Below, in pieces: positions 2,478-22,383 of a stretch of 64,000 nt of DNA. Every line of letters starts with the position of its first letter. Positions within the stretch are counted from its first letter, which is position 1. The notes under the pieces were generated by a model that did no database searches, was not told where the DNA came from, and saw nothing but the letters and a program-made list of their open reading frames with translations. The DNA comes from Cryobacterium sp. M96 (GTDB lineage Bacteria > Actinomycetota > Actinomycetes > Actinomycetales > Microbacteriaceae): assembly GCF_002929845.1 (NCBI RefSeq), contig NZ_PJJS01000038.1:1-64000 (forward strand). The letters are read 5' to 3'. A program made the translations under genes and the position numbers.

Positions 2478-3290
2478 CTACAGGCTGCTCAGAACGAGCG
2501 CGAGCCCATCTTCGTGAACGGCGCCGGTGATCTCGCCGGCCGCCGCGAGCACCTCGTGCGGAGCCTGCCCCATGGCCACTCCCCGACCCTGGACCGACGC
2601 CCACTGCAGCATCTCGATGTCGTTGCGCCCGTCGCCGACGGCCATCACGCGGCTCCGCGGAATCCCGAACTCGGCGCGCACCCGCTCCATGGCGGTGGCC
2701 TTGTTCACGCCGTCGGGGGCGATATCGAGCCAGGCAGTCCAGCCGATCGCGTAGCTCACCCGGTTCAGCCCCATCCGGTCGACGATCTGAAGAAAATCCT
2801 CCATGTCGTGGTCAGGCGAGATGACGACCACCCGGGTGGCGTCCTGGCGCAGCAGATCGTCGAACTCGACGTGCTCGCTATCCAGCCCGATCGTGGCATC
2901 CGGGAACGGCTCCGTGTAGCGGTAGAAGCCGCGCTCGTCTTCGACGGCGTACCTGGCACCGACCAGGTGCGAGCGGATCTGCATCAACACATCGGTCGGA
3001 TCGAAGGTCTCGACCCATTCGCGCCGGTACCCGGTGGGGGAAGCCGGGTCGCGGTGCAGGGTGATCGCACCGTTCGAGCAGACCACGAAGCGCGGGGTGA
3101 TGTCCAGGCGCTCGAGCACGGGGAGCGTGGTGGCGGACGAGCGCCCGGTGGCGAGCATGACCTCATGACCGGCCGCGGCGAGCCGCCGCACCTGGTCGAG
3201 GACGCCGTCGCTGATCGTGCCATTCTCGTGCATGGTGGTGCCGTCGATGTCGAGGGCCACCAGCCAGGGGGCATCCGTCGGCGTCGTCAT
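2478..3290 (-). CDS. HAD-superfamily phosphatase, Cof type
   Basis: This 270-residue product carries the HAD signatures in order: motif I DIDGT at residues 14-18, a CSNGA segment in the cap-linking region, and the late [10 protein letters not shown] motif that binds magnesium. The domain layout fits Cof-type IIB phosphatases, which hydrolyse small phosphorylated metabolites such as sugar phosphates or pyridoxal phosphate. The ATG at 3290 overlaps the serS stop in an ATGA, which decides the start against a longer frame open to 3551. It is therefore translationally coupled to serS. Substrate unknown. Confidence 0.9.
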
Positions 3291-5664: not shown

Positions 5665-6606
5665 TCAGACCGCGGGCTCGCCGAGCAGGCCGCGCAGCCA
5701 GGCGCGCGCACCGATGAAAACGTTGTCGTTGTAGCGCGAGGTGAACTCGATCGGCTGCTTGTCGGCCCGCGGGTACGAGCCGAGGAAGATCACCTGGGGG
5801 CTGAACCGGCGCAGGCCGAGCAGCGCGTCGGCCACGCGTTCGTCGTGGATATGACCGTCGGCATCGATCACGAACCGGTAGCGCCCCAGGGCGTCGCCGA
5901 TGGGGCGCGACTGGATCAGGCTGAGGTTGACGCCCCGGGTGGCGAACTGCTCGAGCATCTCGAGCAGGGCGCCTGAGCGGTCTTCGGGCAGCTCCACGAT
6001 CAGGCTGGTCTTGTCGGCGCCAGTGCGGGGCGGCACGGTGGTGGTTCGGCTGACGAGCACGAAGCGGGTGACCGCGTTGGCGTTGTCGCCGATACTGCGG
6101 GCGAGCACGACCACATCGTGGTGCTTCTCGATGCCGGGCGGGGCGATGGCAGCATCCGCCTGCCCTGATTCGACCAGCGACGCGGCGGCGGCCACGTTGC
6201 TCGACGCCGGAAGGTGGCCGTGGTGCGGCAGATTGGATTCCAGCCAGCGGCGGCACTGCGCATAGGCGACCGGATGCGCGTTGACGATCTTCACATCGGC
6301 CAGCGCGGTGCCCGGGCGAGCCACCAGGACGAAGTTCACCGGAACCAGGTACTCGCCGATGATGCGCAGGTCGGGCACGCTCGCGAGGGCATCCTGCGTG
6401 GCGGACACGCCACCGTCGACGGAGTTCTCGATCGCGATCATCGCGGCCACACTACGGCCGGACACGACGTCGTCGAACGCCTCGCCGACATTGTTCACGG
6501 CCCGCCACGGCTTGCCCTGGGCTTCGACGACCTGGGTGAGGGCTGCCTCGGTGAAGGTGCCCGTCGGCCCAAGGAAGCTGTAGCTGACATTGCGCGACTC
6601 GGACAT
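5665..6606 (-). CDS. pheA: prephenate dehydratase
   Basis: Converts prephenate to phenylpyruvate for phenylalanine synthesis. The 313-residue monofunctional enzyme opens with [13 protein letters not shown] and [14 protein letters not shown], has the catalytic TRF triad (AVTRFVLVS), then a C-terminal ACT domain from about residue 205. The usual phenylalanine-sensing ESRP motif of the ACT domain reads QSRP here. The ATG at 6606 is preceded by minus-strand TAGGCT (6614-6619) with a 7-nt gap, so the mRNA is likely leaderless. The frame stays open far upstream (to 8205) only because it is antisense to pgm. Divergent from pgm. Confidence 0.96.
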
Positions 6607-6642
6607 GCAGATCAGCCTAGTTGCAGTGCAAGACTGGACACC

Positions 6643-8259
6643 ATGAACGAACGCGCGGGCACAGCGGCCCTGGAATCTGACCTTGTCGATGTCGAAGCGC
6701 TGGTGAAGGCGTACTACGACCTGAAACCGGATGTCACGGTGCCAGGCCAGCGAGTGGCCTTCGGCACCTCCGGTCACCGAGGGAGCTCCCTCAACACGGC
6801 CTTCAATGAAGACCACATCATCGCGACCACGCAGGCGATCGTTGAATTCCGCGCCATGCAGGGCATCACCGGGCCGCTCTTCATCGGCACCGACCCGCAC
6901 GCCCTGAGCGCGCCAGCCTATACGACCGCCCTCGAAGTGCTCGTCGCGAACGGCGTGCGCGTGCTGGTCGACGAGTTCGACGACTATGTGCCTACTCCGG
7001 CCCTCTCGCACGCGATCCTGGCCTACAACCGGGCCGGGAACAGCGACGAGGCCGATGGGATCGTGGTCACCCCGAGCCACAACCCGCCCTCCGACGGCGG
7101 CTTCAAATACAACCCACCGCACGGCGGACCGGCCGACAGCGACGCCACCTCGTGGATCGCCGCCCGGGCCAACGAACTCATCGCCGCCGGGCTCAATGAT
7201 GTCAAAAAAAGCGAGCCCAGCGCGGTCGAGACCTACGACTTCCGCGGTGGGTACGTGAATGACCTTGAGAACATCATCGACATGGCCGCCATCAAGGCCA
7301 GCGGCATTCGTATCGGAGCCGACCCGCTCGGCGGCGCGAGCGTGGGCTACTGGGGTGCGATTCGCGACCGCTACGAGCTCAACCTGACCGTGATCAACCC
7401 CCACGTCGACCCCACCTGGCGCTTCATGACCCTGGACTGGGACGGCAAGATCCGGATGGATCCGTCGAGCCCGTCCGTGATGGCATCCGTCGCCGCCCAC
7501 AAGGACGAGTTCGACATCGTCACCGGCAACGACGCCGACGCCGACCGGCACGGTATCGTCACCCCCGACGGCGGGCTGATGAACCCGAACCACTTCCTGG
7601 CCGTGGCCATCGACTACCTGTACAGCCACCGCGAAGGCTGGCGGGCGGATGCCGCGATCGGCAAGACGCTCGTCTCCTCCACCATGATCGACCGCGTCGC
7701 GGGTTTCCTCGGCCGCGACCTCTGGGAGGTGCCGGTCGGATTCAAGTGGTTCGTTCCGGGCCTGATCGACGGCTCGGTCGCCTTCGGCGGCGAGGAGAGC
7801 GCCGGCGCCAGCTTCGTGCGCTTTGACGGAACCGTCTGGACCACCGATAAAGACGGCATCCTGCTGGCCCTGCTCGCCTCGGAGATTCTCGCCGTGACCG
7901 GCAAGACGCCCAGCCAACGCTACGCCGAGCTGGCCGAGCACTTCGGCGACCCGGCCTACGCTCGCGTGGACGCGGCCGCGACGCCCGCCCAGAAGGCGCA
8001 GCTGTCCAAGCTCGACGGAGCCGCCATCACGGCCACCGAACTCGCCGGCGAGAAGATCATCGCCAAGCTGAGTCACGCTCCCGGCAACGGTGCGGCAATC
8101 GGCGGCGTCAAGGTCGTCACCGAGAACGCCTGGTTCGCGGCCCGGCCGAGTGGCACCGAGGACGTTTACAAGATCTACGCCGAGTCCTTCACTGGCCCGG
8201 AACACCTGAAGCAGGTTCAGATCGAGGCCAAGGCCATCGTTGACGGCGCCATCGCCTGA
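6643..8259 (+). CDS. pgm: phosphoglucomutase (alpha-D-glucose 1,6-bisphosphate-dependent)
   Basis: Interconverts glucose 1-phosphate and glucose 6-phosphate. The 538-residue length matches bacterial Pgm of the alpha-phosphohexomutase family. Key sites are FGTSGHRG near the N-terminus, the phosphoserine loop [11 protein letters not shown] (Ser145), the magnesium loop [10 protein letters not shown], sugar-binding [10 protein letters not shown], and the phosphate-binding [10 protein letters not shown] near the C-terminus. The start at 6643 matches the family N-terminus; only a weak AAGACT hexamer lies upstream. It could take glucose 1-phosphate from the putative phosphorylase encoded at 12988. 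Confidence 0.97.
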
Positions 8260-9207: not shown

Positions 9208-10077
9208 TCAGTGGTAGCCGGGAGCCGCCGGGAGCCCGAAGAATTCCTCGAGGGTGGCGGTTCCGGTGGCGTGCATCTCCGTGGCCAGTTCCGTTCCGAT
9301 GTAGCGGAAGTGCCAGGGCTCGTAGCCGTAGCCGGTGATGGCCACCTTGTCGGCCGGGTAGCGCAGCAGGAACCCGAAACGCCAGGCATTCCCGGCAAGC
9401 CACTGCCCCTGTGGGGTGTCGCCGAAGCAGGCATCCAGCGAACAGATCCGGGGCAGTGCGCTGATGTCGATGGCCAGACCGGTCTGGTGCTCGCTGTTTC
9501 CCGGCCGGGCCGTGCTGGTGTCGGCGAACGCCTGTCCGTTCGCGGCGACATCCGCGTCGTAGACCATCACCTGGGCCGCGAAGCTCCGGTAGGCGCTGTG
9601 GGACTGCAGCTTCAGCCCGGTCTCCGCCTCGAACGCGGAGAACAGGGCCACGGTTGCGTCCGACGCCTCCCGGCGAAGTTGCGGGCTCCAGACGTGAGCC
9701 ACCGGGACGTCGACGAGGTCGGTCGGAGCGTAGTCGGTGGGGTTCAGCGGGCGGGTCTTGTCAACGACGACCCAGAGGCTGGCCGGGTCGTCGAGTGAGC
9801 GCGCGGAACGGTCAAAGGTAGGCATCACGGCCGGCTCCGGGGAACCTGTCGGGGCGGAACGAGGCGGGGTGGGGGTGGCGCTCGGTTCGACACGGGCAAT
9901 CAGCGTCGGAGCGACGGCGGAACCGACGACGGGCGGCGCGGTTTCCCCGGTCAGGGCTCCGGCCGCCACCGCACCGGCGGCGAGTACAGAGATGGCGATG
10001 GACAGCACGACGATACGCCTCCGCCGTAACGGATGCGCGACCCCCACTGCCCGATCTGCCCACACGATGCTGAGCAT
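9208..10077 (-). CDS. D-alanyl-D-alanine carboxypeptidase, VanY-like (peptidase M15B)
   Basis: Trims the terminal D-Ala of peptidoglycan stems. The 289-residue protein has an N-terminal membrane segment (about residues 20-45), a Thr/Pro-rich linker, and the zinc peptidase fold: SAYRSFAAQ, the SEHQTGLAIDI metal site (His and Asp ligands), and EPWHFRYIG with the third metal-binding His. I place the start at the ATG at 10077; a longer frame to 10158 would run under the promoter of the divergent exporter gene. Codirectional with the amidase gene 154 bp downstream. Confidence 0.9.
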   Translation of the reverse strand: MLSIVWADRAVGVAHPLRRRRIVVLSIAISVLAAGAVAAGALTGETAPPVVGSAVAPTLIARVEPSATPTPPRSAPTGSPEPAVMPTFDRSARSLDDPASLWVVVDKTRPLNPTDYAPTDLVDVPVAHVWSPQLRREASDATVALFSAFEAETGLKLQSHSAYRSFAAQVMVYDADVAANGQAFADTSTARPGNSEHQTGLAIDISALPRICSLDACFGDTPQGQWLAGNAWRFGFLLRYPADKVAITGYGYEPWHFRYIGTELATEMHATGTATLEEFFGLPAAPGYH

Positions 10078-10120
10078 AGACCGGAGCGGGTTCCCCCAGC
10101 CTCCGACGGCCCGCAGGCGC

Positions 10121-10149
10121 TTGAAGATTGTTTGCCCATCGTGTAACTT
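10121..10149 (+). promoter_or_regulatory. promoter TTGAAG-N17-TAACTT for the exporter gene
   Basis: The -35 hexamer TTGAAG (10121-10126) and -10 hexamer TAACTT (10144-10149) are spaced by exactly 17 bp. The -10 ends 8 nt before the ATG at 10158, so transcription should begin at or next to the start codon. Confidence 0.75.
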
Positions 10150-10157
10150 TGCGCACA

Positions 10158-11936
10158 ATGCAAACTTCTCCCGCTCTCGCCGCCCCGCCGCTGATGTCCC
10201 ACCGGCAGATTCTCTTCGTCATCTTCGGACTGATGGCCGGAATGTTCCTCTCCGCCCTCGATCAGACCATTGTCGGAACATCGATGCGCACCATCGCCGA
10301 CGACCTCGACGGCATGGCGCTGCAGGCCTGGGTGACGACCGCCTACCTGATCGTGTCGTGCATCAGCACGCCGATCTACGGCAAACTCAGCGACATTTTC
10401 GGGCGCCGCCCGCTGTTCCTGATCGCGATCACAATCTTCCTCATCGGCTCGCTCCTGGCCGGCCTGGCGAACTCGATGTACGAGCTCGCGATCTTCCGGG
10501 CCATCCAGGGGCTCGGCGCCGGCGGCCTGATGGCTCTCCCCCTGACGATCATGGGCGACATGCTGGCACCCCGGGAGCGGGCGAAATACCAGGGGTACTT
10601 CCTGGCCGTCTTCGGGGTCTCCAGCGTGATCGGCCCGCTCATCGGCGGCGTCCTGTCGGGCTCGGACACGATCCTCGGAATCACGGGCTGGCGGTGGGTC
10701 TTCCTGATCAACCTCCCGATCGGCATCATCGCCCTCGCAATCGTGCTGAAGTTTCTACACGTTCCCCACTTCGCCCGGCCCGTTCGCATCGACTGGTGGG
10801 GAGCGGTGACCGTGATCCTTGCAGCCGCGCCGCTGCTGCTCGTGGCCGAGCAGGGCCGCACCTGGGGCTGGGGTTCGATCCCCTCGATCGCCTGCTACGT
10901 GATCGGACTCTTCAGCATCGCGGCCTTCATCCTCGCCGAGCGGCTGATGGGCGACGACGCGCTCATCCCGCTGAAACTGTTCCGTTCGTCCACGTTCAGG
11001 ATGGCGACCATCCTGGGCGTCTTCGTCGGCTTCGGCATGTTCGGCGCCATGATGACGGTGCCGCTCTACCTGCAGCTCGTGAACGGGGCCACCCCGACGG
11101 AGAGCGGCTTCCTGATGCTGCCGATGATCGCAGGCCTGATGATCTCCTCCATTGTGAGCGGCCAGCTGATCGCCCGTACCGGCCGCTACAAGGTTTTCCC
11201 CACCATCGGCACTGCCTTCATGTCGGCAGGCTTCCTGCTCTTCACATTCGCCACCGCCGACAAGCCGGTCGGATTCATGATGGCCGGGATGCTCCTGATC
11301 GGCCTCGGCCTCGGCCAGCTGATGCAGACGCTCACCATCGCCAGCCAGAATTCGGTCGGCCCTCGGGATATCGGCGTGGCCACATCCGCCGCGACGTTTT
11401 TCCGCCAGATCGGCGGCACGCTCGGCACCGCCGTGCTCTTTTCGGTGCTGTTCACCCGCATCCCCGACACGATCGGCGCGGCCTTCGACAACCCGACCAT
11501 CGTCTCCGGGGTCAGGGACGCTGCAACGGACCCGGCCGTGCAGGCCGACCCGGCGAACACCGGCATCCTGGCCCTGTTGGCCAACCCGGGCAGCGTGGGC
11601 GGCGCCCTCGACGGCGACACCTCGTTCCTCAACACGGCCGACCCGCGGCTCGCAGAGCCGTTCCTCGTCGGCTTCAACGACGCATCCGTCACCGTCTTCT
11701 GGGTGAGCCTGGCCGTCGTGCTGGTCGCATTCGTACTGAGCTTCTTCCTCACGGCGCCGCCGCTGCGCAACACCTCCGCCCTGCAGGAGGCCGCGGACGA
11801 GAACGCGGCCGAGCTGACCGCGCAGGCCGAGCTGACCCGGGACGCGCAGCGGGCCGCCGACAGGATGGGCGCCCTGGTCGAGCCGGGGATCGACGTCGAC
11901 GAGTTCGAGCGCGAGGCCCGCACCCAGCCCCGCTAG
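10158..11936 (+). CDS. MFS multidrug exporter, DHA2 (EmrB/QacA) family, 14 TM
   Basis: Proton-driven drug exporter of 592 residues. Family marks are [17 protein letters not shown] in TM1, the loop motif [11 protein letters not shown] between TM2 and TM3, and [16 protein letters not shown] in TM4. Hydrophobicity fits 14 segments, with a large extracellular loop (about residues 445-510) before the last helix, and a charged cytoplasmic tail. The start at 10158 is set by the promoter 8 nt upstream. No regulator is adjacent. An R1 repeat follows the stop. Substrates cannot be predicted. Confidence 0.92.
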
Positions 11937-11938
11937 CA

Positions 11939-12031
11939 CCCGAACGAATTCGACGGAGATTTTGCTCCTACCGCCCCATTTAGGCCTCAAATCGTCACTT
12001 TGTGGCAAAATCTCCGTCGAATGCGCACAGG
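11939..12031 (+). repeat. R1 element, copy 1 (93 bp, right end diverged)
   Basis: The left arm CGAACGAATTCGACGGAGAT (11941-11960) is inverted in the right arm GCAAAATCTCCGTCGAAT (12005-12022). The outermost bases of the right end have drifted from the family. It begins two bases after the exporter stop. In all four copies the distance from the first base of the left end to the end of the inner right arm is 84 bp. Confidence 0.9.
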
Positions 12032-12101
12032 GCGCGCAGTCACGGATGGCCCGGTCCGGGCGTTGGGGAATTGTGGGGACCGTCGGGGCGTTGTATTGGT
12101 A

Positions 12102-12782
12102 ATGCGCATTGTTATTGCAGGTGGACATGGAAAAATCGCCCGGCAGCTCACGCGGGAGCTCACGAAGAACGGCCACGAGGTCCTCGGGCTGATCCGCACG
12201 GAGGAACAGAGGGCGGACCTCGTCGCTGACGGAGCCGTTCCGGTGGTGTTCGACCTCGAAAAGACCTCATCGGCCGAGGCGGCGCACCTCTTGGCCGGTG
12301 CCGACGTCGCGGTGTTCGCCGCGGGCGCCGGAGCCGACGGCAGCGAGGAGCGCCGTCAGGCCGTCGACTTCGGCGGCTCCGTGCGACTGGCCGACGCGGC
12401 TGAGTCCGCCGGCGTGGTGCGCTTCATCCAGATCTCGTCGACCGGCACCGAGAAGGTGCGGGACGGTCAGACCCCGGCGGATGTACCGGCGGACTTCCTG
12501 GGCTACCTGCAGGCCAAACTGGCGGCCGAGGAAGACCTGATCGCTCGGCCCCTGGCTTGGACGATCGTTCGCCCCGGCGGCCTCGTCGACGACGCAGGAA
12601 CCGGACTGGTGCGCCTGAACCCGGCCGGCCCCGGCCTGCCGGAAGATCGCGCGACTGTGCCCCGCGCGGACGTCGCGGCCGTGCTGGCCGCACTCATCGA
12701 GACCGGCGCCGCCGAGCGCCGGGTGCTGCACCTGGTCTCCGGCGACGAACCCGTCGCTGTTGCCGTAGCCGCGTTCGCCTAA
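12102..12782 (+). CDS. NAD(P)-binding atypical short-chain dehydrogenase/epimerase-like protein
   Basis: The 226-residue protein has a Rossmann fold with the GGHGKIARQL glycine motif at residues 7-16, an IQISSTGTEK segment, and a YLQAKLAAEEDL helix with the Tyr-x-x-x-Lys pair used by SDR enzymes. Downstream RPGGLVDD and the late DVAAVLAALIE helix match the NAD(P)H-binding (NmrA/YwnB-like) group. Such proteins are oxidoreductases or redox sensors; no substrate can be given. The upstream frame is open but includes part of the R1 element, so the ATG at 12102 is preferred. Confidence 0.82.
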   Translation: MRIVIAGGHGKIARQLTRELTKNGHEVLGLIRTEEQRADLVADGAVPVVFDLEKTSSAEAAHLLAGADVAVFAAGAGADGSEERRQAVDFGGSVRLADAAESAGVVRFIQISSTGTEKVRDGQTPADVPADFLGYLQAKLAAEEDLIARPLAWTIVRPGGLVDDAGTGLVRLNPAGPGLPEDRATVPRADVAAVLAALIETGAAERRVLHLVSGDEPVAVAVAAFA

Positions 12783-12908
12783 GGCTTCGGCCGCCAGGCG
12801 GGCCCCCGCCGGTCGACCCGGTGCACCTTCAGCCGACCCAGCGCCGGCCCTCCGCACAACACCGCGGGGGGCCGGCGCTTGAATGCGCGGTAGATGTCTG
12901 GCAGTCTG

Positions 12909-12922
12909 TGAGAGCGCTCTCA
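12909..12922. promoter_or_regulatory. LacI-family operator O1 (TGAGAGCGCTCTCA)
   Basis: A perfect 14-bp palindrome 65 bp upstream of the large GH94-like gene. It differs at two symmetric positions from the CebR/CelR box known in Streptomyces and Thermobifida (TGGGAGCGCTCCCA). Two related sites lie before the binding-protein gene. Confidence 0.85.
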
Positions 12923-12987
12923 TCAGTGAGATGGTGGAGCACTCGCCGGCCGGAACATCCGCCGGAGTGAATCCAATGGAGGATCGC

Positions 12988-15900
12988 ATGCCCCTCGAGA
13001 CCATCATTCAGCCCATCGGCCGGGGCGAGATCCCGTTCGACCCCGCAGATGGCACTGACCCTGCGGAGGGCACCGTCCGGGGCGGACCGGTCGATCTGGA
13101 CGGGCGCCGGTTCTACCGGATCGAGGCCTACGACCAGATGCCGCCGTTCTTCATGACCCTTGTCGGCGCGAGCAACGTCTGGCTCTTCATCTCGAGCACG
13201 GGCGGCCTGACGGCAGGACGGGTCGACGCCGATCGGGCCCTGTTCCCGTATTACACCGACGACAAGGTCACCGAGAGCGGCGGCCGAACCGGTGGGCTCA
13301 GCGTGCTGCTCGTTCGACGCCCCGACGGGACCGGGATTCACTGGCAGCCGTTCGCGGAGGTGCGTCCCGGCGATCAGGCCGTGCAGCGCACGCTGTACAA
13401 GGACGCCCTCGGCACGACCCTGGTCTTCGAGGAGACCCGCCCGGATCTCGGCCTGCGCCTGCGCGTGACCTGGCAGACGAGTGCCCGCTTCGGCGTCGTG
13501 CGCAGCTGCGCCCTGACCTCGCTCACCGACCAGAAGCTCACCGGCGAGCAGCTCGGCGAAACGCTCGACGTCGACCTCCTCGACGGCCTGGTGAACATCC
13601 TTCCCGCCGGAGCCCTCAAGAAGACGCAGAACGAGCTGAGCGTGCTGCTGGACGCCTACAAGCGGGCCGAACTCGACTCTTCGACGGGCCTCGGGCTGCT
13701 GACGCTGAACGCGACGCTCTCCGACCTCGCCGAGCCCAGCGAGTCGCTGCAGGCCAACGTGGCCTGGCAGGTAGGGCTGGGCAACGCCGAGCACCTGCTC
13801 TCGATCAGCCAGGTGGCTGCCTTCGCCCGGGGCCGGGGCATCACCGCCGAGACGGATGTCCGCGGCCAGCGCGGCGCTTACCTCGTGCACGCGCGGATCA
13901 CGCTGGCCCCCGGAAGCACGCAGCGCTGGCAGATCGTCGCCGACGTCAACCAGGACGCGGCCGATGTCGTCGCCCTGCGCGAGAAGCTGCGAGATCCTGC
14001 CGGGCTCGCCGAGGAGCTCGCGGCCGACATCGTCGGCACCCGGTCCGACCTGGAGACGATCCTCGCGGCCACCGACGCCGCCCAGCACAGCGGCGACGAG
14101 CTCGCGACCATCCACCACACCGCCAACGTGCTTTTCAACACGATGCGCGGCGGCGTTCCGGCCGAGGGCTACACGGTGGAGTTGAGCGACGTGCGGGCGT
14201 TCATCATTCAGCGGAGTAAGTCGACCGCCCAGCGCTGCGCCGGCGTGCTGGCGGCGCTGCCCGAGCGGCTGCGCTCCGACGAACTCATCGCCATCGCCCA
14301 GGAGTACGGCGACGTAGACCTGTGGCGCCTCGCCACGGAATACCTGCCGCTCACGTTCAGCCGCCGGCACGGCGATCCGAGCCGGCCGTGGAATCAGTTC
14401 CGGATCGTTCTGAAAGACGAGAGTGGCATCCGTCGCCTGGAATACCAAGGCAACTGGCGGGACATCTTCCAGAACTGGGAGGCGCTGGCCTGGTCATTCC
14501 CCGAATACGTGGAGTCGATGGTCACGATCTTCCTTGACGCCACGACCGCCGACGGCTACAACCCGTACCGGATCTCTCGCGAGGGCATCGACTGGGAGGT
14601 CCCCGAGCCCGAAGACCCCTGGGCCAACATCGGTTACTGGAGCGACCACCAGATCATCTACCTGCTCAAGTTGCTCGAGACCTCCCGCCGATTCCACCCG
14701 GGGCGCCTCGACGCGCTCATCAACCGGGCGGCCTTCACCCACGCCGACGTGCCGTACCGGATCGCCGCCTATGCGGACATCCTCACGGACCCGTACAACA
14801 CCATCACCTTCGACGACGAGCGGCAGCGCACGATCACGCGGCGGGTCGCCGAGGAGGGCTCGGACGGTCGGCTCGTGCACGGTGCCGACGGCGACCTCGT
14901 GCGGGTAACGCTGGCCGAGAAGGTGCTGCTGCTCCTGCTGGCCAAGCTCGTCAATCTGGTGCCGGACGGCGGCATCTGGATGACGACCCAGCGCCCGGAA
15001 TGGAACGACGCCAACAACGCGCTCGTCGGCCGTGGCCTGTCGGTGGTCACCCTCGCCTATCTGCGCCGCTACCTCGTCTTCGTGCAGGACCTCCTGACGG
15101 TCGACGTCGAGCTCTCGAGCGAGCTCGCCGGACTGCTCACCGCGGTGCGCGACGTGCTCTTCGAGCATGCGGACGGCCTGGCCGGCGGGTTCGATTCCAC
15201 TCGCCGCCGGGCCGTGATGGACGGCCTGGGCGAGGCAGGGACCTCCTATCGCGAGCGGGTCTACGCGGGGTTCGATGGGGAGCGGTCGACGGTCGCCGCG
15301 GGAGACGTCGCCGAGCTGCTCGATCTGGCTCGGCGCTTCATCGAGTCCGGCCTGCACGCCAACCGGCGGGACGACGGGCTCGTGCACTCCTACAACGTGC
15401 TGGAGTTCGGGGACGATGGGGCCGATGTGCGTCGGCTCGCGGAGATGCTCGAGGGCCAGGTCGCCATCCTTTCCTCCGGCCTGCTCGGCCCGGAAGAGAC
15501 GCTGGACCTGCTCGGTGCCCTGCGCACGAGCCGGCTGTACCGCGCCGACCAGCACAGCTACATCCTCTATCCCGACAAGGACCTTTCGTCCTTCCTCGCC
15601 CGCAACACCTTCAGTGCGGCACGGGCCGCCGACTGCCCTCTCGCCCTGCGCCTCATCGCTGCCGGCGACCGCAGCATAGTTGTGCGGGATGTTCAGGGCG
15701 ACCTGCACTTCGCCGCCCACATCCGAAACGCCAGGGGCGTTTCGGATGCGCTCGACCGGCTCAGCGCCGACCCGACGCTGCAGGGCGCCGTGGAACAGGA
15801 CCGGGCCGAACTGCTCACCATCTTCGAGGAAGTCTTCCGGCATGCGGAATTCACCGGGCGCTCCGGCTCGTTCTTCGCCTACGAGGGCCTCGGCAGCATC

Positions 15901-16503
15901 TACTGGCACATGGTCGCGAAGCTGCTGCTCGCGGTGCAGGAGACACTCGACCGGGCCGTCGCCGAGCAGGCGGATGAAACTTCGATCCAGGGGCTGATGG
16001 CGGCGTACGAGGACGTGCGTGCCGGCATCGGCTACCGCAAGGATCCGCTCACCTACGGTGCGTTCCCCACCGATCCTTACTCGCACACGCCCGCCGGCCA
16101 GGGCGCCCGGCAGCCGGGGATGACCGGGCAGGTCAAAGAGGAGGTGCTCACCCGCCTGGGCGAGCTCGGCCTGCGGGTCGAAGGCGGTCGCATCCGTTTG
16201 CGGCCCACCCTGCTGCGGGCCGGCGAGTGGACCACGGCTCCCGGCACGTTCGCCTACCGGGATGTCCTCGGCGAGCAGCACAGCGTCGAGCTGCCCGCGG
16301 ACACGCTCGCGTTCACGTTCTGTCAGGTCCCGGTCGTGTTCCACCGCGGCGGCCCGCTCGAGATGGTCGCACACCTCGCCGACGGCGCCCAGGTGCCCGG
16401 TCCCGGCGGCACGCTCGACGCCGACGTGAGCGCGAGCGTCTTCCGCCGCGACGGCCGGGTGCGCTCCCTCACGGTGACCGTACCGGACCAAGACGGACTC
16501 TGA
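12988..16503 (+). CDS. large cytosolic protein of a beta-glucoside operon, GH94-like (putative oligosaccharide phosphorylase)
   Basis: This 1171-residue protein has no signal peptide or membrane segment, so it acts inside the cell. The N-terminal third looks like a beta-rich carbohydrate-binding domain; the rest is helix-rich. Conserved-looking blocks include NWRDIFQNWEALAWSFPEY, GYWSDHQIIYLLKLLE and RPEWNDANNAL. The last recalls the DWND motif carrying the general acid of GH94 phosphorylases (here W672-N673-D674). Size, cytosolic location and neighbours resemble 1,2-beta-oligoglucan phosphorylase operons, but I cannot prove GH94 membership. The start at 12988 is chosen because GGAGG lies 6 nt upstream. 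Operator O1 precedes it. First gene of the cluster; alternative: an uncharacterised conserved (alpha/alpha)6-barrel hydrolase. Confidence 0.6.
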   Translation: MPLETIIQPIGRGEIPFDPADGTDPAEGTVRGGPVDLDGRRFYRIEAYDQMPPFFMTLVGASNVWLFISSTGGLTAGRVDADRALFPYYTDDKVTESGGRTGGLSVLLVRRPDGTGIHWQPFAEVRPGDQAVQRTLYKDALGTTLVFEETRPDLGLRLRVTWQTSARFGVVRSCALTSLTDQKLTGEQLGETLDVDLLDGLVNILPAGALKKTQNELSVLLDAYKRAELDSSTGLGLLTLNATLSDLAEPSESLQANVAWQVGLGNAEHLLSISQVAAFARGRGITAETDVRGQRGAYLVHARITLAPGSTQRWQIVADVNQDAADVVALREKLRDPAGLAEELAADIVGTRSDLETILAATDAAQHSGDELATIHHTANVLFNTMRGGVPAEGYTVELSDVRAFIIQRSKSTAQRCAGVLAALPERLRSDELIAIAQEYGDVDLWRLATEYLPLTFSRRHGDPSRPWNQFRIVLKDESGIRRLEYQGNWRDIFQNWEALAWSFPEYVESMVTIFLDATTADGYNPYRISREGIDWEVPEPEDPWANIGYWSDHQIIYLLKLLETSRRFHPGRLDALINRAAFTHADVPYRIAAYADILTDPYNTITFDDERQRTITRRVAEEGSDGRLVHGADGDLVRVTLAEKVLLLLLAKLVNLVPDGGIWMTTQRPEWNDANNALVGRGLSVVTLAYLRRYLVFVQDLLTVDVELSSELAGLLTAVRDVLFEHADGLAGGFDSTRRRAVMDGLGEAGTSYRERVYAGFDGERSTVAAGDVAELLDLARRFIESGLHANRRDDGLVHSYNVLEFGDDGADVRRLAEMLEGQVAILSSGLLGPEETLDLLGALRTSRLYRADQHSYILYPDKDLSSFLARNTFSAARAADCPLALRLIAAGDRSIVVRDVQGDLHFAAHIRNARGVSDALDRLSADPTLQGAVEQDRAELLTIFEEVFRHAEFTGRSGSFFAYEGLGSIYWHMVAKLLLAVQETLDRAVAEQADETSIQGLMAAYEDVRAGIGYRKDPLTYGAFPTDPYSHTPAGQGARQPGMTGQVKEEVLTRLGELGLRVEGGRIRLRPTLLRAGEWTTAPGTFAYRDVLGEQHSVELPADTLAFTFCQVPVVFHRGGPLEMVAHLADGAQVPGPGGTLDADVSASVFRRDGRVRSLTVTVPDQDGL

Positions 16504-16516
16504 CCGCCGAGCCAGG

Positions 16517-16530
16517 AGAGAGCGCTCTCT
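16517..16530. promoter_or_regulatory. LacI-family operator O2 (AGAGAGCGCTCTCT)
   Basis: A perfect palindrome with the same AGAGCGCTCT core as O1 and O3. Its last base is the first base of the -35 hexamer, so a bound repressor would block RNA polymerase. O2 and O3 centres are 56 bp apart. Confidence 0.85.
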
Positions 16531-16559
16531 TGACAAACCATCGATGCGCGCACTAACGT
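16530..16559 (+). promoter_or_regulatory. promoter TTGACA-N18-TAACGT of the transport operon
   Basis: A consensus -35 (TTGACA, 16530-16535) and TAACGT -10 (16554-16559) with 18-bp spacing. It sits between operators O2 and O3, 85 bp upstream of the binding-protein start. Confidence 0.8.
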
Positions 16560-16572
16560 AAGCACCACCACG

Positions 16573-16586
16573 TGAGAGCGCTCTCA
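16573..16586. promoter_or_regulatory. LacI-family operator O3 (TGAGAGCGCTCTCA)
   Basis: Identical to O1. It begins 14 bp after the -10 hexamer, over the early transcribed region. Confidence 0.88.
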
Positions 16587-16643
16587 CGGCACAATGAGAG
16601 CGACCTTGCATCCACCCATCAGCACGCACACAAGGGAGTGACC

Positions 16644-17921
16644 GTGAAGCGTTTCCCGCGCACCACACTTGCAGTAACAGTCGCCGGAGCAGCATCCTTC
16701 GCACTGGTTCTATCCGGTTGTTCAGCGAACGCCGGCGGAGAGCAGTCGACCGACGAAAACGTCAAACTGACCGTCGCGACGTTCAACGAATTCGGCTATG
16801 ACGACCTGTTCGCCGAGTACGAGAAGGCCAACCCGAACGTCACCATCACGCACAAGAAGGCTGCCACCTCCAACGAGGCCCGCGACAACCTCACGACCCG
16901 TCTCGCCGCAGGCAGCGGCCTGAGCGACATCGAGGCCATCGAGGTCGACTGGCTGCCGGAACTGCTCCAATACTCCGACCAGTTCATCGACCTCGCCTCT
17001 GACGACGTCGACGAGCGCTGGCTCGACTGGAAGACCGAGGCCGCGACGGATGCCGACGGCCGCCTGATCGCCTACGGCACCGACATCGGTCCGGAAGCCG
17101 TCTGCTACCGCTCCGACCTGTTCGCCGCCGCCGGTCTTCCGACCGACCGCGCCGAGGTCGCCGCACTCCTCGGCACCAGCTGGGAGAGCTACTACGCAGC
17201 CGGTGAGAAGTTCGCTGCTGCCGGCACGAACGTGCCGTGGTTCGACTCTGCCGGAGCCACCTGGCAGGGCGTCGTCAACCAGATCCCCAACGCCTATGAA
17301 GAAGAAGACGGCACCATCATCGCCACCGGGAACCCGGAGGTGAAGAAGGCCTACACGAGCGTGCTCGAGGCCAGCAGCACGCTGTCCGCGCACCTCGGAC
17401 AGTGGAGCGACGACTGGACCGCCAGCTTCCAGAACGACGGCTTCGCCACGATGCTCTGCCCGGGCTGGATGCTCGGCGTGATCTCCGGCAACGCTGAAGG
17501 CGTCGCCGGCTGGGACATCGCCGACACGTTCCCCGGCGGCGGCGGCAACTGGGGCGGCTCGTACCTGACCGTTCCCGAGCAATCCAAGAACCAGGCCGAG
17601 GCCCAGAAGCTCGCTTCCTGGCTGACCGCCCCGGAGCAGCAGCTCAAGGCGTTCGCGTCCAAGGGCACGTTTCCGAGCCAGCTCGAAGCCCTCGAGAGCG
17701 ACGAACTCCTCGGCGCCACGAACGAGTTCTTCAACAACGCGCCGACCGGTGAGATCCTTGCCAACCGCGCCGCCGCTGTCGACGTGACCCCGTACAAGGG
17801 CGAGTTCTACTTCGCGATCAACGACGCCATGCAGCAGGCGCTCACCCGCGTCGAAGACGGCACCATGACGGCTGACGAGTCGTGGGCTCAGTGGGTCACC
17901 GACGTCGAGTCGCTCGGCTAA
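16644..17921 (+). CDS. sugar ABC transporter substrate-binding lipoprotein (family 1)
   Basis: Extracellular receptor of a CUT1-type carbohydrate importer, 425 residues. A basic start, hydrophobic stretch and lipobox LSGC near residue 27 mark a lipoprotein. The mature part has the family 1 solute-binding layout, with aromatic residues (W at several sugar-facing positions) consistent with oligosaccharide binding. Start is GTG at 16644 with AAGGGAG upstream. It follows the O2-promoter-O3 control region. Two permeases follow after a 113-bp gap filled with R3 repeats. No ATPase is encoded here, so a shared ATPase of the MsiK type is likely (inference). Confidence 0.93.
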   Translation: MKRFPRTTLAVTVAGAASFALVLSGCSANAGGEQSTDENVKLTVATFNEFGYDDLFAEYEKANPNVTITHKKAATSNEARDNLTTRLAAGSGLSDIEAIEVDWLPELLQYSDQFIDLASDDVDERWLDWKTEAATDADGRLIAYGTDIGPEAVCYRSDLFAAAGLPTDRAEVAALLGTSWESYYAAGEKFAAAGTNVPWFDSAGATWQGVVNQIPNAYEEEDGTIIATGNPEVKKAYTSVLEASSTLSAHLGQWSDDWTASFQNDGFATMLCPGWMLGVISGNAEGVAGWDIADTFPGGGGNWGGSYLTVPEQSKNQAEAQKLASWLTAPEQQLKAFASKGTFPSQLEALESDELLGATNEFFNNAPTGEILANRAAAVDVTPYKGEFYFAINDAMQQALTRVEDGTMTADESWAQWVTDVESLG

Positions 17922-17933
17922 CCAGCACCATCC

Positions 17934-18025
17934 CACCGGTCGGGCCTGTCGAGACCACCTGGTCCCGGCCGGCCCGACCCCGGTCTCGACCGGCTCACCC
18001 GGGCCTCGACAAGCTCAACCACCGA
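17934..18025. repeat. R3 repeat cluster between binding-protein and permease genes, with alternative hairpins
   Basis: Three R3-like units lie in mixed orientation. GGTCGGGCC (17939-17947) pairs with GGCCCGACC (17972-17980), and GTCGAGACC (17949-17957) with GGTCTCGAC (17983-17991). The two pairings interleave, so they are mutually exclusive or form a pseudoknot. The position suits lowering permease expression relative to binding protein (inference). Confidence 0.65.
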
Positions 18026-18034
18026 AGGACTTTC

Positions 18035-19021
18035 ATGACTACCGTTGCCGCTGTCGAGGTGAATGCCCGCAGCATCCGCCGCATCGCCCTCAGCCACACA
18101 CTGAGCCGCTGGGATGTGCGCTTCTCGCCCTACCTCTACATCTCCCCCTTCTTCCTCGTCTTCGCCGTCATGGGCCTCTTCCCGCTGCTGTACACGGCGT
18201 GGGTGTCGGTGCACGACTGGAACCTCATCGGCGGCCAGGGCGACTTCGTCGGCCTGGAGAACTTCGTCACGGTGCTGAGCCAGGGATACTTCTGGAACTC
18301 CCTGCGCAACACCTTCAGCATCTTCCTGCTCTCGAGCATCCCCCAGATCATCGTCGCGCTCGGCATCGCCGCCGTGCTCGACTTCAACCTGCGCGGAAAG
18401 ACCTTCTGGCGCATGGGCGTGCTCCTTCCCTACGTCGTGGCCCCGGTCGCCGTCGCACTCATCTTCAACGACCTCTTCGGCGACAAGTTCGGCTTGATCA
18501 ACAGCGCGATCATGAGCCTGGGCCTCGAGCCCGTGCGCTGGCACGTCGACGTGATCCCCAGCCACCTCGCCATCGCCACAATGGTGAACTTCCGCTGGAC
18601 CGGTTACAACGCCCTTATCTTCCTCGCCGCCATGCAGGCCGTCCCGCGCGATTACTACGAGGCCGCCATCATCGACGGCGCCAACCGCTGGCGCACCTTC
18701 GGGTCGATCACCCTGCCGCTGCTGCGACCGATCATCATCTTCGTCATCCTGACCTCGACGATCGGCGGGCTGCAGATCTTCGACGAGGCACGCATGTTCG
18801 ACAACGTCGGCCAGGGCGGAGCCAGTCGCCAGTGGCAGACGCTCACCCTGTACATCTACGAACTCGGCTGGAACCAGCGCAACTTCGGCCGGGCGTCCGC
18901 CGTGGCCTGGCTCCTGTTCCTGATCATCATCCTCATCGCTGTCATCAACTTCCTCATCACCCGTCGCATCGCGGGCACCGGCGACCGCAAGCTGCGCGTC
19001 CGCGCGAAAGGCATCTCATGA
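18035..19021 (+). CDS. carbohydrate ABC transporter permease, MalF type
   Basis: First membrane subunit of the CUT1 importer, 328 residues with about six transmembrane helices. The first helix region YLYISPFFLVFAVMGLFPLLY is typical, and the cytoplasmic EAA loop is seen as YYEAAIIDGANRWRTFGSITLPLLRP, which contacts the ATPase. The start at 18035 has GAAGGAC upstream; the longer open frame is repeat DNA. Its stop overlaps the next ATG by four bases. Confidence 0.95.
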   Translation: MTTVAAVEVNARSIRRIALSHTLSRWDVRFSPYLYISPFFLVFAVMGLFPLLYTAWVSVHDWNLIGGQGDFVGLENFVTVLSQGYFWNSLRNTFSIFLLSSIPQIIVALGIAAVLDFNLRGKTFWRMGVLLPYVVAPVAVALIFNDLFGDKFGLINSAIMSLGLEPVRWHVDVIPSHLAIATMVNFRWTGYNALIFLAAMQAVPRDYYEAAIIDGANRWRTFGSITLPLLRPIIIFVILTSTIGGLQIFDEARMFDNVGQGGASRQWQTLTLYIYELGWNQRNFGRASAVAWLLFLIIILIAVINFLITRRIAGTGDRKLRVRAKGIS

Positions 19022-19856
19022 GCAAGACCATCATCGGCGGGCACGACCGTCGGCCGTCCCTCTGGGTCTACGGCATCCTGATCGCGGTTATCCTCGGCTC
19101 GGCCTTCCCGATCTGGTGGTCGTTCCTGATCGGCAGCCAGGATGCCTCCGCGCTGAACCAGAACGGGATGATGTGGATCCCGGGCGGTAACTTCATCGCC
19201 AACGCGGCCACGGTCATCGACAGCATCCCGTTCTGGACGGCGCTCGGCAACAGCATCATCGTGTCGTCCGTGGTGTCGCTCAGCGTCGTGATGTTCTCGA
19301 CGCTCGCCGGCTACGCCTTCGCCAAGCTGAAGTTCCGCGGCCGGGAAGGTCTGCTCATCTTCGTGATCGCGACCATGGCCGTGCCGACCCAGCTCGGCGT
19401 CGTGCCCCTGTTCATCGTCATGTCAAGGCTCGGCTGGACCGGCAGCCTCTGGGCCGTCATCGCGCCCGCCATGGTGACCGCGTTCGGCGTGTTCTGGATG
19501 ACCCAGTACCTGCGCGACGCACTGCCCGACGAGCTGATCGAGGCGGTGCGCATGGACGGAGCGTCGATGATCCGCAGCTTCTGGCACATCGGTCTCCCGG
19601 CCGCCCGCCCGGCCGCGGCGATGCTCGCCCTGTTCACGTTCATCGGCACCTGGACCAACTTCTTCTGGCCGTTCATCGTGCTCGGCCCCGGCAACCCGAC
19701 CCTCCCGGTTGCACTGCAGCAGCTGCAGGCCGCCTTCTACGTCGACTACTCGCTCGTGCTGGCCGGCGTGGTGCTCTCGATCATCCCGCTGATCCTGGTC
19801 TTCATCTTCCTGGGTAAGCAGCTCGTGGCCGGAATCATGCAGGGCGCGGTCAAGGG

Positions 19857-19860
<4 letters not shown>
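19018..19860 (+). CDS. carbohydrate ABC transporter permease, MalG type
   Basis: Second membrane subunit, 280 residues and about six helices. The EAA loop reads ELIEAVRMDGASMIRSFWHIGLPAARP. It overlaps the upstream permease stop (ATGA) and its own stop overlaps the beta-glucosidase start (ATGA), so the three genes are translationally coupled. Confidence 0.95.
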
Positions 19861-21314
<1,454 letters not shown>

Positions 21315-21354
21315 ACCGGAACCGCGAGGGATGCGGGCAAAATATAATGGCGTC

Positions 21355-22383
21355 ATGATAACGAGTGTGCGCCAGGTCCGTCCTTCGCAGCCCACCCTGG
21401 AAATGGTGGCCGAGGTGGCCGGGGTTTCCCGGGCCACCGTGAGCCGGGTCGTGAACGGGTCCACCAGGGTCAGCCCAGAGATCGTCGCCTCGGTGACGGA
21501 CGCCATCAACCAGCTCAACTATGTTCCGAACCGGGCGGCCCGCTCGCTCGCGAGCCGGCAGACCGAGGCCGTGGCCCTGGTCGTGCCTGAGGATATGACC
21601 CGGTTCTTCGGTGATCCCTACTTCGCCGCGGTCGTGCAGGGCATCACCCGCCGACTCGACCAAAGTGATTACACGCTCAACCTGCTCGTTGCGTCGAGCG
21701 ACCCACGGCACAAGACTCTGCGCTACCTGCGCTCGGGCAACGTCGACGGAGCGCTCATCATCTCGCACCACACCGGCGACGACTTCGTGGCCGAACTCGA
21801 CAAGACCATGCCGGTGGTCTTCGGCGGCCGGCCGTCGAACGCGGACAACCTCGCCGCCTACTTCGTTGACGTCGACAACGCGGCGGGTGCCGAGACGGGC
21901 ACCCAGCACCTCGTCGACATCGGGCGCCGCCGCATCGGCTCGATCGCCGGCGCGGTGGACATGCCGGCCGGCATCGACCGCCTCACCGGGTTCGAGCGCA
22001 CGCTGGAGCGGGCCGGGCTGCCCGCGGATGCCGTCGAACTCGCCGACTTCACAGCCGCCGGTGGCGCGGCAGCCACCCGCCGGCTGCTGGAGCGGTGCCC
22101 CGACATCGACGGCCTCTTCGTGGCGAGCGACCTGATGGCCACCGGGGCGGTGGATGTGCTGCGTGAGCTCGGCCGCTCTGTGCCCGGCGACGTGGCCATC
22201 GTCGGGTTCGACGACAGCCCGGCCGCGACGAGCGGCCCGGTGCCGCTGACTACGGTGAGCCAGCCCTCCGAGGAAATGGGCTACGCGATGGCGGACATTC
22301 TGCTGCGCCGGCTCGCCGCCGACGAGAGCATGCCGCACCGCACCCTCATGCCGACCCGTTTGGTACTACGCGAGTCGGCGTGA
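21355..22383 (+). CDS. LacI-family transcriptional regulator (CebR-like)
   Basis: The 342-residue repressor has an N-terminal helix-turn-helix (LEMVAEVAGVSRATVSRVVNG, about residues 15-35), the hinge region around YVPNRAARSLASRQT, and a periplasmic-binding-protein-like sensor domain ending in the usual dimer region. The start is the ATG at 21355. A perfect TATAAT -10 (21343-21348) ends 6 nt upstream, so the message is leaderless and the ATG at 21331 cannot be used from this promoter. It is last in the beta-glucoside cluster and most likely binds the three TGAGAGCGCTCTCA-type sites. No such site lies at its own promoter. Confidence 0.93.
   Translation: MITSVRQVRPSQPTLEMVAEVAGVSRATVSRVVNGSTRVSPEIVASVTDAINQLNYVPNRAARSLASRQTEAVALVVPEDMTRFFGDPYFAAVVQGITRRLDQSDYTLNLLVASSDPRHKTLRYLRSGNVDGALIISHHTGDDFVAELDKTMPVVFGGRPSNADNLAAYFVDVDNAAGAETGTQHLVDIGRRRIGSIAGAVDMPAGIDRLTGFERTLERAGLPADAVELADFTAAGGAAATRRLLERCPDIDGLFVASDLMATGAVDVLRELGRSVPGDVAIVGFDDSPAATSGPVPLTTVSQPSEEMGYAMADILLRRLAADESMPHRTLMPTRLVLRESA

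Follow-up and report, generated by a model that had tools for sequence, protein, structure and literature searches.

The window analysed here is a stretch of 64,000 nucleotides from Cryobacterium sp. M96 (Microbacteriaceae; assembly GCF_002929845.1, contig NZ_PJJS01000038.1, positions 1 to 64,000). At 12988–16503 it carries a gene for a 1171-residue protein, followed by genes for a sugar importer, a glycoside hydrolase family 1 (GH1) β-glucosidase and a LacI-family regulator. A sequence-only reading had described the product as GH94-like and as possibly representing a family not previously assigned. We find that it belongs over its full length to GH149, a family already named, and profile, alignment and model make it very probable that it is a cytosolic, inverting β-1,3-glucan phosphorylase serving a β-glucoside catabolic locus. 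The gene and its putative ribosome-binding site are as follows.

12988–16503, + strand: predicted GH149 β-1,3-glucan phosphorylase gene, 1171 amino acids, assigned by family profile, PDB match, alignment and model
12978–12982, + strand: ribosome-binding-like GGAGG, 5 nt ahead of the ATG at 12988, read by eye

The frame reported earlier for this gene holds: it is open on the + strand from 12988 to the TGA terminator that closes it at 16503, it is preceded by the GGAGG, and frame 1 of the opposite strand contains a stop. An alternative start at 12883 would give a longer protein of 1206 residues, but is disfavoured because a palindrome at 12910 would then become coding and because similarity to the family begins only at about residue 29.

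Residues 29–1165 match the NCBIfam equivalog NF058639 ('1,3-beta-D-glucan phosphorylase, GH149 family') over profile positions 4–1133 of 1134 with 1492.4 bits, passing its cut-off of 1150 by 342 bits. A sequence search of the PDB aligned residues 30–1169 with the solved GH149 enzyme Pro_7066 (6HQ6/6HQ8) at 1038 bits, and this alignment spans both inserted domains of the enzyme. Only two other distinct PDB sequences matched: 9h8v at 45.7 bits and 9qqk at 44.4 bits, which are named as a cellobiose phosphorylase and a GH161 phosphorylase, respectively. A Pfam scan of the 1171-residue protein returned no family at E 10, which on its own could have hinted at an unassigned family, but the NCBIfam and PDB matches place the protein in GH149, which was published in 2018 and gained a crystal structure in 2019. 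The GH94 model PF17167 had no match in the whole genome, with a control search finding it in 2 of 14 genomes (over the cut-off in one).

The predicted structure gives the same order of relatives. For an AlphaFold2 model, the window protein was aligned with 33 relatives picked from 80 related loci (34 rows); the model has a mean predicted local distance difference test score of 86.8 and a predicted template modelling score of 0.88. Against 6HQ8 (length 1138) it gave Z 51.2 and a root mean square deviation of 2.1 over 1127 aligned residues, with 43% identity in the structural alignment. Below GH149 came the best GH161 chain (Z 37.9), a GH94 laminaribiose phosphorylase (Z 29.4) and other GH94 enzymes (about 25 and lower), and Foldseek ranked the families identically, with template modelling scores of 0.93/0.96 to 6HQ6. 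GH161 is not the nearest solved relative, with Z 37.9 and 44.4 bits for 9qqk versus Z 51.2 and 1038 bits for GH149. By these alignments, the predicted structure has the N-terminal β-sandwich, (α/α)6 barrel, C-terminal jelly roll and inserted domains Dom 1 and Dom 2 of the GH149 fold. The sequence-only reading had staked itself on a structure search returning an (α/α)6 barrel related to that of GH94, and the model has one; its assignment to GH94 itself and its suggestion of a new family did not survive, as profile, Pro_7066 and structure search all name GH149 as nearest.

The seven residues described for the active site of Pro_7066 are R470, D471, W651, N652, D653 (predicted catalytic), E951 and H959, according to PMC6771811; the chain numbering of 6HQ6/6HQ8 runs 19 ahead of the numbering in that paper. 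All seven are kept in the alignment to Pro_7066, as R491, D492, W672, N673, D674, E966 and H974, and they are invariant across the 34 rows. The predicted general acid is D674, the D of WND, which is aligned to D653. The motif EWND lies at 671–674, where it had been noted as recalling the DWND of GH94, and the comparison was apt: the WND aligns with that of Pro_7066 as the putative catalytic loop, and the preceding E is usual in GH149, being E in 92 and D in one of 93 rows (the window, 80 loci and 12 genus loci, the rows of G399 (L091) and Cryobacterium algoritolerans (L004) being identical). Profile, solved relative, active-site residues and fold thus agree computationally with the earlier guess of a phosphorylase. 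The laminarihexaose surface site of Pro_7066 is less well kept, with two of eight residues identical (E982, E997 here; R1062, R1077 here), one conservative replacement (K831 to R846) and five changes (Y841 to H, E838 to A, E990 to A, Y993 to E and E994 to D), by which a YE pair becomes ED. This site is reported to vary in bacterial GH149 members less like Pro_7066 and is not a family-defining trait (PMC6771811).

The remaining features of the locus are listed below.

6214–8259, + strand: phosphoglucomutase open reading frame, true start inside (TIGR01132, 870 bits, cut-off 778.05)
12909–12922, core 12910–12921: operator-like palindrome TGAGAGCGCTCTCA, upstream of the phosphorylase gene
16518–16529: operator-like palindrome GAGAGCGCTCTC, directly abutting TTGACA
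16530–16535, + strand: TTGACA, a −35-like hexamer between two palindromes, read by eye
16574–16585: operator-like palindrome GAGAGCGCTCTC, 56 bp after the previous copy and before the binding-protein gene
16644–17921, + strand: extracellular solute-binding protein (SBP_bac_8, Pfam)
18035–19021, + strand: ATP-binding cassette (ABC) sugar permease 1 (BPD_transp_1; best NCBIfam models UgpA and MalF, below cut-offs)
19018–19860, + strand: ABC sugar permease 2 (BPD_transp_1; best NCBIfam models UgpE, GlcU and MalG, below cut-offs)
19857–21314, + strand: GH1 β-glucosidase (TIGR03356, 580.8 bits, cut-off 478.5; PF00232)
21355–22383, + strand: LacI-family regulator (NCBIfam and Pfam), its link to the palindromes suggested by co-occurrence

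The binding-protein, permease, GH1 and LacI genes are closely spaced on the strand of the phosphorylase gene, and profile matches support the operon context described earlier. No ATPase gene for the transporter was seen in the cluster; the ATPase is presumably a shared one encoded elsewhere, as in actinobacteria. The phosphoglucomutase frame lies outside the cluster, ending at 8259, about 4.7 kb upstream of the phosphorylase gene with other genes between. Elsewhere in the genome, GH3 (PF00933) has one match, on contig C23, with an internal stop, and GH64 (PF16483) has none, a result that is uninformative because the control matched nowhere either.

The exact palindrome GAGAGCGCTCTC occurs three times in the genome of 3,296,130 bases, always in the cluster (12910, 16518 and 16574), and the reversed control pattern does not occur. 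When at most one mismatch was tolerated, three matches were reached in 3 of 100 shuffled versions of the window, so that the count in the window alone is only mildly unusual. The longer forms, TGAGAGCGCTCTCA at 12909 and 16573 and AGAGAGCGCTCTCT at 16517, both match variants of a CelR-like site found before putative cellobiose transporters in Actinobacteria (PMC3377646), and would be putative operators of that type. The regulator matches 19 NCBIfam LacI-type models, none above its cut-off and none named CebR or CelR. Of the earlier label of a CebR-like LacI regulator, the LacI part stands, and the CebR-like part finds no model at cut-off and leans on the agreement of the palindromes with the published variants. 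The co-occurrence of regulator and palindromes makes it likely that the one binds the other. The phosphorylase and binding-protein genes each have a palindrome-bearing upstream region of their own, so the cluster may consist of two units under common control instead of a single operon.

GH149 was found above the cut-off in 13 of 57 Cryobacterium genomes. Among 398 sampled Microbacteriaceae genomes it was present in four, all Cryobacterium (with 10 genomes of that genus listed), or in one of 85 genera. For more distant comparison we used the best 80 of at least 592 matching stretches as related loci. In a gene tree that includes these (FastTree, local supports only), Cryobacterium groups with Actinomycetales bins (L001–L003 and L010), a Chloroflexota row stands next to this group, and a Demequina bin (L057) falls elsewhere. 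The binding protein and permeases of L001–L003 are 61–70% identical to those of the window and adjoin the phosphorylase in another gene order. Among the best 80 loci, the exact palindrome occurs in four, all Actinomycetota (L001, L002, L004 and L010), and is absent from L003, which has the same gene set, and from L057. Locus L001 holds a fourth exact copy at 10641–10652, within the GH149 coding range, by chance or as an internal operator. Separately, L014 carries GH149 at 10001–13369 on a contig binned as Candidatus Brockarchaeota (archaeal) and groups with an Acidobacteria bin, which may reflect either a genuine archaeal occurrence or mistaken binning.

Within the genus, we compared 28 loci at this place, 12 with GH149 and 16 without; the latter came from 44 GH149-free genomes and were chosen where the genes for a NAD-binding protein and an LLM-type oxidoreductase lie near each other. 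At least one exact palindrome is present in 26 of the 28, the others being L101 and L102, and the exact core precedes the phosphorylase gene in all 12 other GH149-bearing loci. Upstream of the binding-protein gene, the 13 GH149-bearing loci including the window have the exact pair in 10 cases, one copy in two (L109 and L115) and none in one (L111). Four of the 16 GH149-free loci (L105, L118, L120 and L122) contain an orthologous binding protein (77–84%), permeases, GH1, LacI and palindromes. A diverged binding protein (43–48%) with the same palindrome is found in 10 more (L097–L100, L103, L104, L119, L121, L123 and L124), whose site is perhaps a hotspot for swapping β-glucoside uptake cassettes. 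The two palindromes of a pair lie 54–57 bp apart in the GH149-bearing loci, as they do in L105, L118, L120 and L122, and 22–24 bp apart in loci with the diverged transporter. Between the flanking genes of the remaining two, L102 has GH1 only and L101 nothing recognised. GH149-bearing L112 has no GH1 gene that we could find between permease 2 and LacI (3001–3044), so phosphorylase and hydrolase are separable in nature. Gene order also varies between lineages: in L115, L116 and L117, GH149 and its palindrome are found beyond the NAD-binding gene.

Three quick trees, with support from the Shimodaira–Hasegawa-like approximate likelihood ratio test only, were made from these loci. The LacI tree (26 rows) places 12 GH149-bearing rows, including genome G429, in one clade (starred, 95); L117 was left out, as its stretch ends before LacI. 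In the tree of the NAD-binding protein (29 rows), the GH149-bearing rows split: 12 are united in one clade (starred, 99), and G429 sits with GH149-free genomes (starred, 99). Resolution is poor in the oxidoreductase tree (26 rows), where the GH149-bearing rows need three changes, one of them forced by starred branches. When the G429 locus (L106, G429:C1:169600–182500) is compared with window positions 12090–22381, the cassette proteins are 88–98% identical and the adjacent NAD-binding protein 61%, a contrast that, together with the grouping of the NAD-binding protein, points to exchange of the cassette among members of the genus. Blastn of the window against G429 gave one continuous alignment over 12090–22381 at 87.4%, so any exchanged stretch has no sharp edge on that side. 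Since 4 of the 16 GH149-free loci hold transporter, GH1 and regulator, the phosphorylase looks like an add-on to an older β-glucoside regulon. The simplest reading is that GH149 joined this regulon once within the genus, followed by cassette exchange into the G429 lineage; other lineages may have lost GH149. We tentatively extend this to a picture that we hold to be somewhat less probable than its opposite, in which GH149 is a plug-in module with its own operator that was added, a single time in the genus, to an existing hydrolytic GH1/ABC/LacI regulon, the whole cassette was then exchanged between lineages at one conserved place, and the surface site diverged, perhaps towards shorter chains scavenged in the cold habitats with which Cryobacterium is linked.

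Computation shows the family, the fold, the residues of the active site, the order of the genes and the palindromes; the activity, linkage, direction, location, inducer and binding regulator are inferred as follows. GH149 would remove the non-reducing-end glucose with inorganic phosphate inside the cell, a cytosolic location being expected from the family. The activity characteristic of GH149 is reversible phosphorolysis of β-1,3-gluco-oligosaccharides, with acceptors from glucose upward. Following the inverting mechanism proposed in the literature for GH94 and GH149, D674 would protonate the glycosidic oxygen and phosphate would attack C1 with inversion, giving α-glucose 1-phosphate and a shortened chain. 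Phosphoglucomutase, the likely consumer, would convert glucose 1-phosphate to glucose 6-phosphate, and GH1 would hydrolyse the residual disaccharide or other β-glucosides. The LacI regulator would repress both transcription units via the three palindromes until a disaccharide inducer releases it. The presence of an importer and of GH1 points to the scavenging of short oligosaccharides that other organisms produce.

Several observations weigh against this scheme. As most of the surface site differs from that of Pro_7066, the chain-length preference may differ as well. Because 4 of the 16 GH149-free loci have the orthologous transporter with its palindromes, this transporter may carry something other than a β-1,3-glucan, and PMC3377646 describes the palindrome as CelR-like and places it ahead of putative cellobiose transporters. 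GH16 (PF00722) had no match in the whole genome, with the control found in 6 of 14 genomes and GH17, GH55, GH81 and GH128 not searched. Finally, a sigma-70 promoter scan of 12780–16700 returned no promoter-like site, so the promoter reading rests on the single TTGACA picked by eye. The first three of these points also favour a GH149 enzyme whose main substrate is another β-glucan linkage or a mixed-linkage oligosaccharide, which would fit a cellobiose-type transporter and a CelR-like operator. However, the three GH149 enzymes listed in a review (Pro_7066, EgP1 and GH149_H) act on β-1,3 links, the catalytic residue set is unchanged, and the equivalog cut-off is exceeded by 342 bits, so we regard a different linkage as improbable. 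Still less likely is a mainly synthetic enzyme that makes a β-1,3-glucan store from glucose 1-phosphate: GH149 reactions are reversible (PMC5827456), but a palindrome common to phosphorylase, importer and β-glucosidase is the layout of a catabolic locus. That the protein is a GH94 enzyme or belongs to a family not yet assigned deserves almost no credence; its fold is related to that of the GH94 laminaribiose phosphorylase (Z 29.4) and no Pfam model matches, but the NF058639 score, the full-length alignment with Pro_7066 and a structure closest to GH149 by a wide margin contradict it. We therefore keep to the β-1,3-glucan phosphorylase.

Compared with known systems, the protein resembles Pro_7066 in its full-length alignment, including both inserted domains, and in the seven active-site residues. 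It differs in overall sequence (43% identity), in the surface site, mostly not kept here, and in origin, as Pro_7066 is closest to Bacteroidetes sequences (PMC5827456) and the window protein comes from a Gram-positive genus. Type I GH149 clusters of Proteobacteria combine an ABC transporter, the phosphorylase and a LacI or AraC regulator (PMC5827456), and the present cluster likewise has GH149 adjoining an ABC transporter and a LacI regulator. The type I transporter consists of a COG0747 binding protein, COG0601/1173 permeases and two ATPase genes (PMC5827456), whereas the window has SBP_bac_8, UgpAE/MalFG-like permeases, no ATPase gene seen and an extra GH1. The PapP cluster of Paenibacillus polymyxa (PMC6484121) is similar in being Gram-positive and in placing a β-1,3-glucan phosphorylase with transporter and GH1 genes, but PapP belongs to GH161 (Z 37.9 versus 51.2 for GH149) and needs acceptors of at least two units (PMC6484121). 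The GH94 laminaribiose phosphorylase of Paenibacillus sp. YM-1 (6GH3) has a related fold (Z 29.4) and common active-site motifs (PMC6771811), but is 16% identical over 826 aligned residues and is described in the same paper as being without the two extra domains. The founding paper drew GH149 from Proteobacteria, Bacteroidetes and Euglenophyceae (PMC5827456), and in the literature examined, a partial search, we found no description of an actinobacterial GH149 locus and none naming GH149 with Microbacteriaceae. The locus follows type I logic but differs in its type of transporter and in having GH1 besides, and its host and gene arrangement are modestly new.

In summary, a protein read as an unknown relative of GH94 can now be tied to a probable named activity. 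The three exact palindromes found genome-wide, all around one phosphorylase and importer, make a clean candidate regulon. As a Gram-positive case, with genomes that have or lack the gene at the same place, the locus permits a direct test of what a phosphorylase contributes to a hydrolytic sugar operon.

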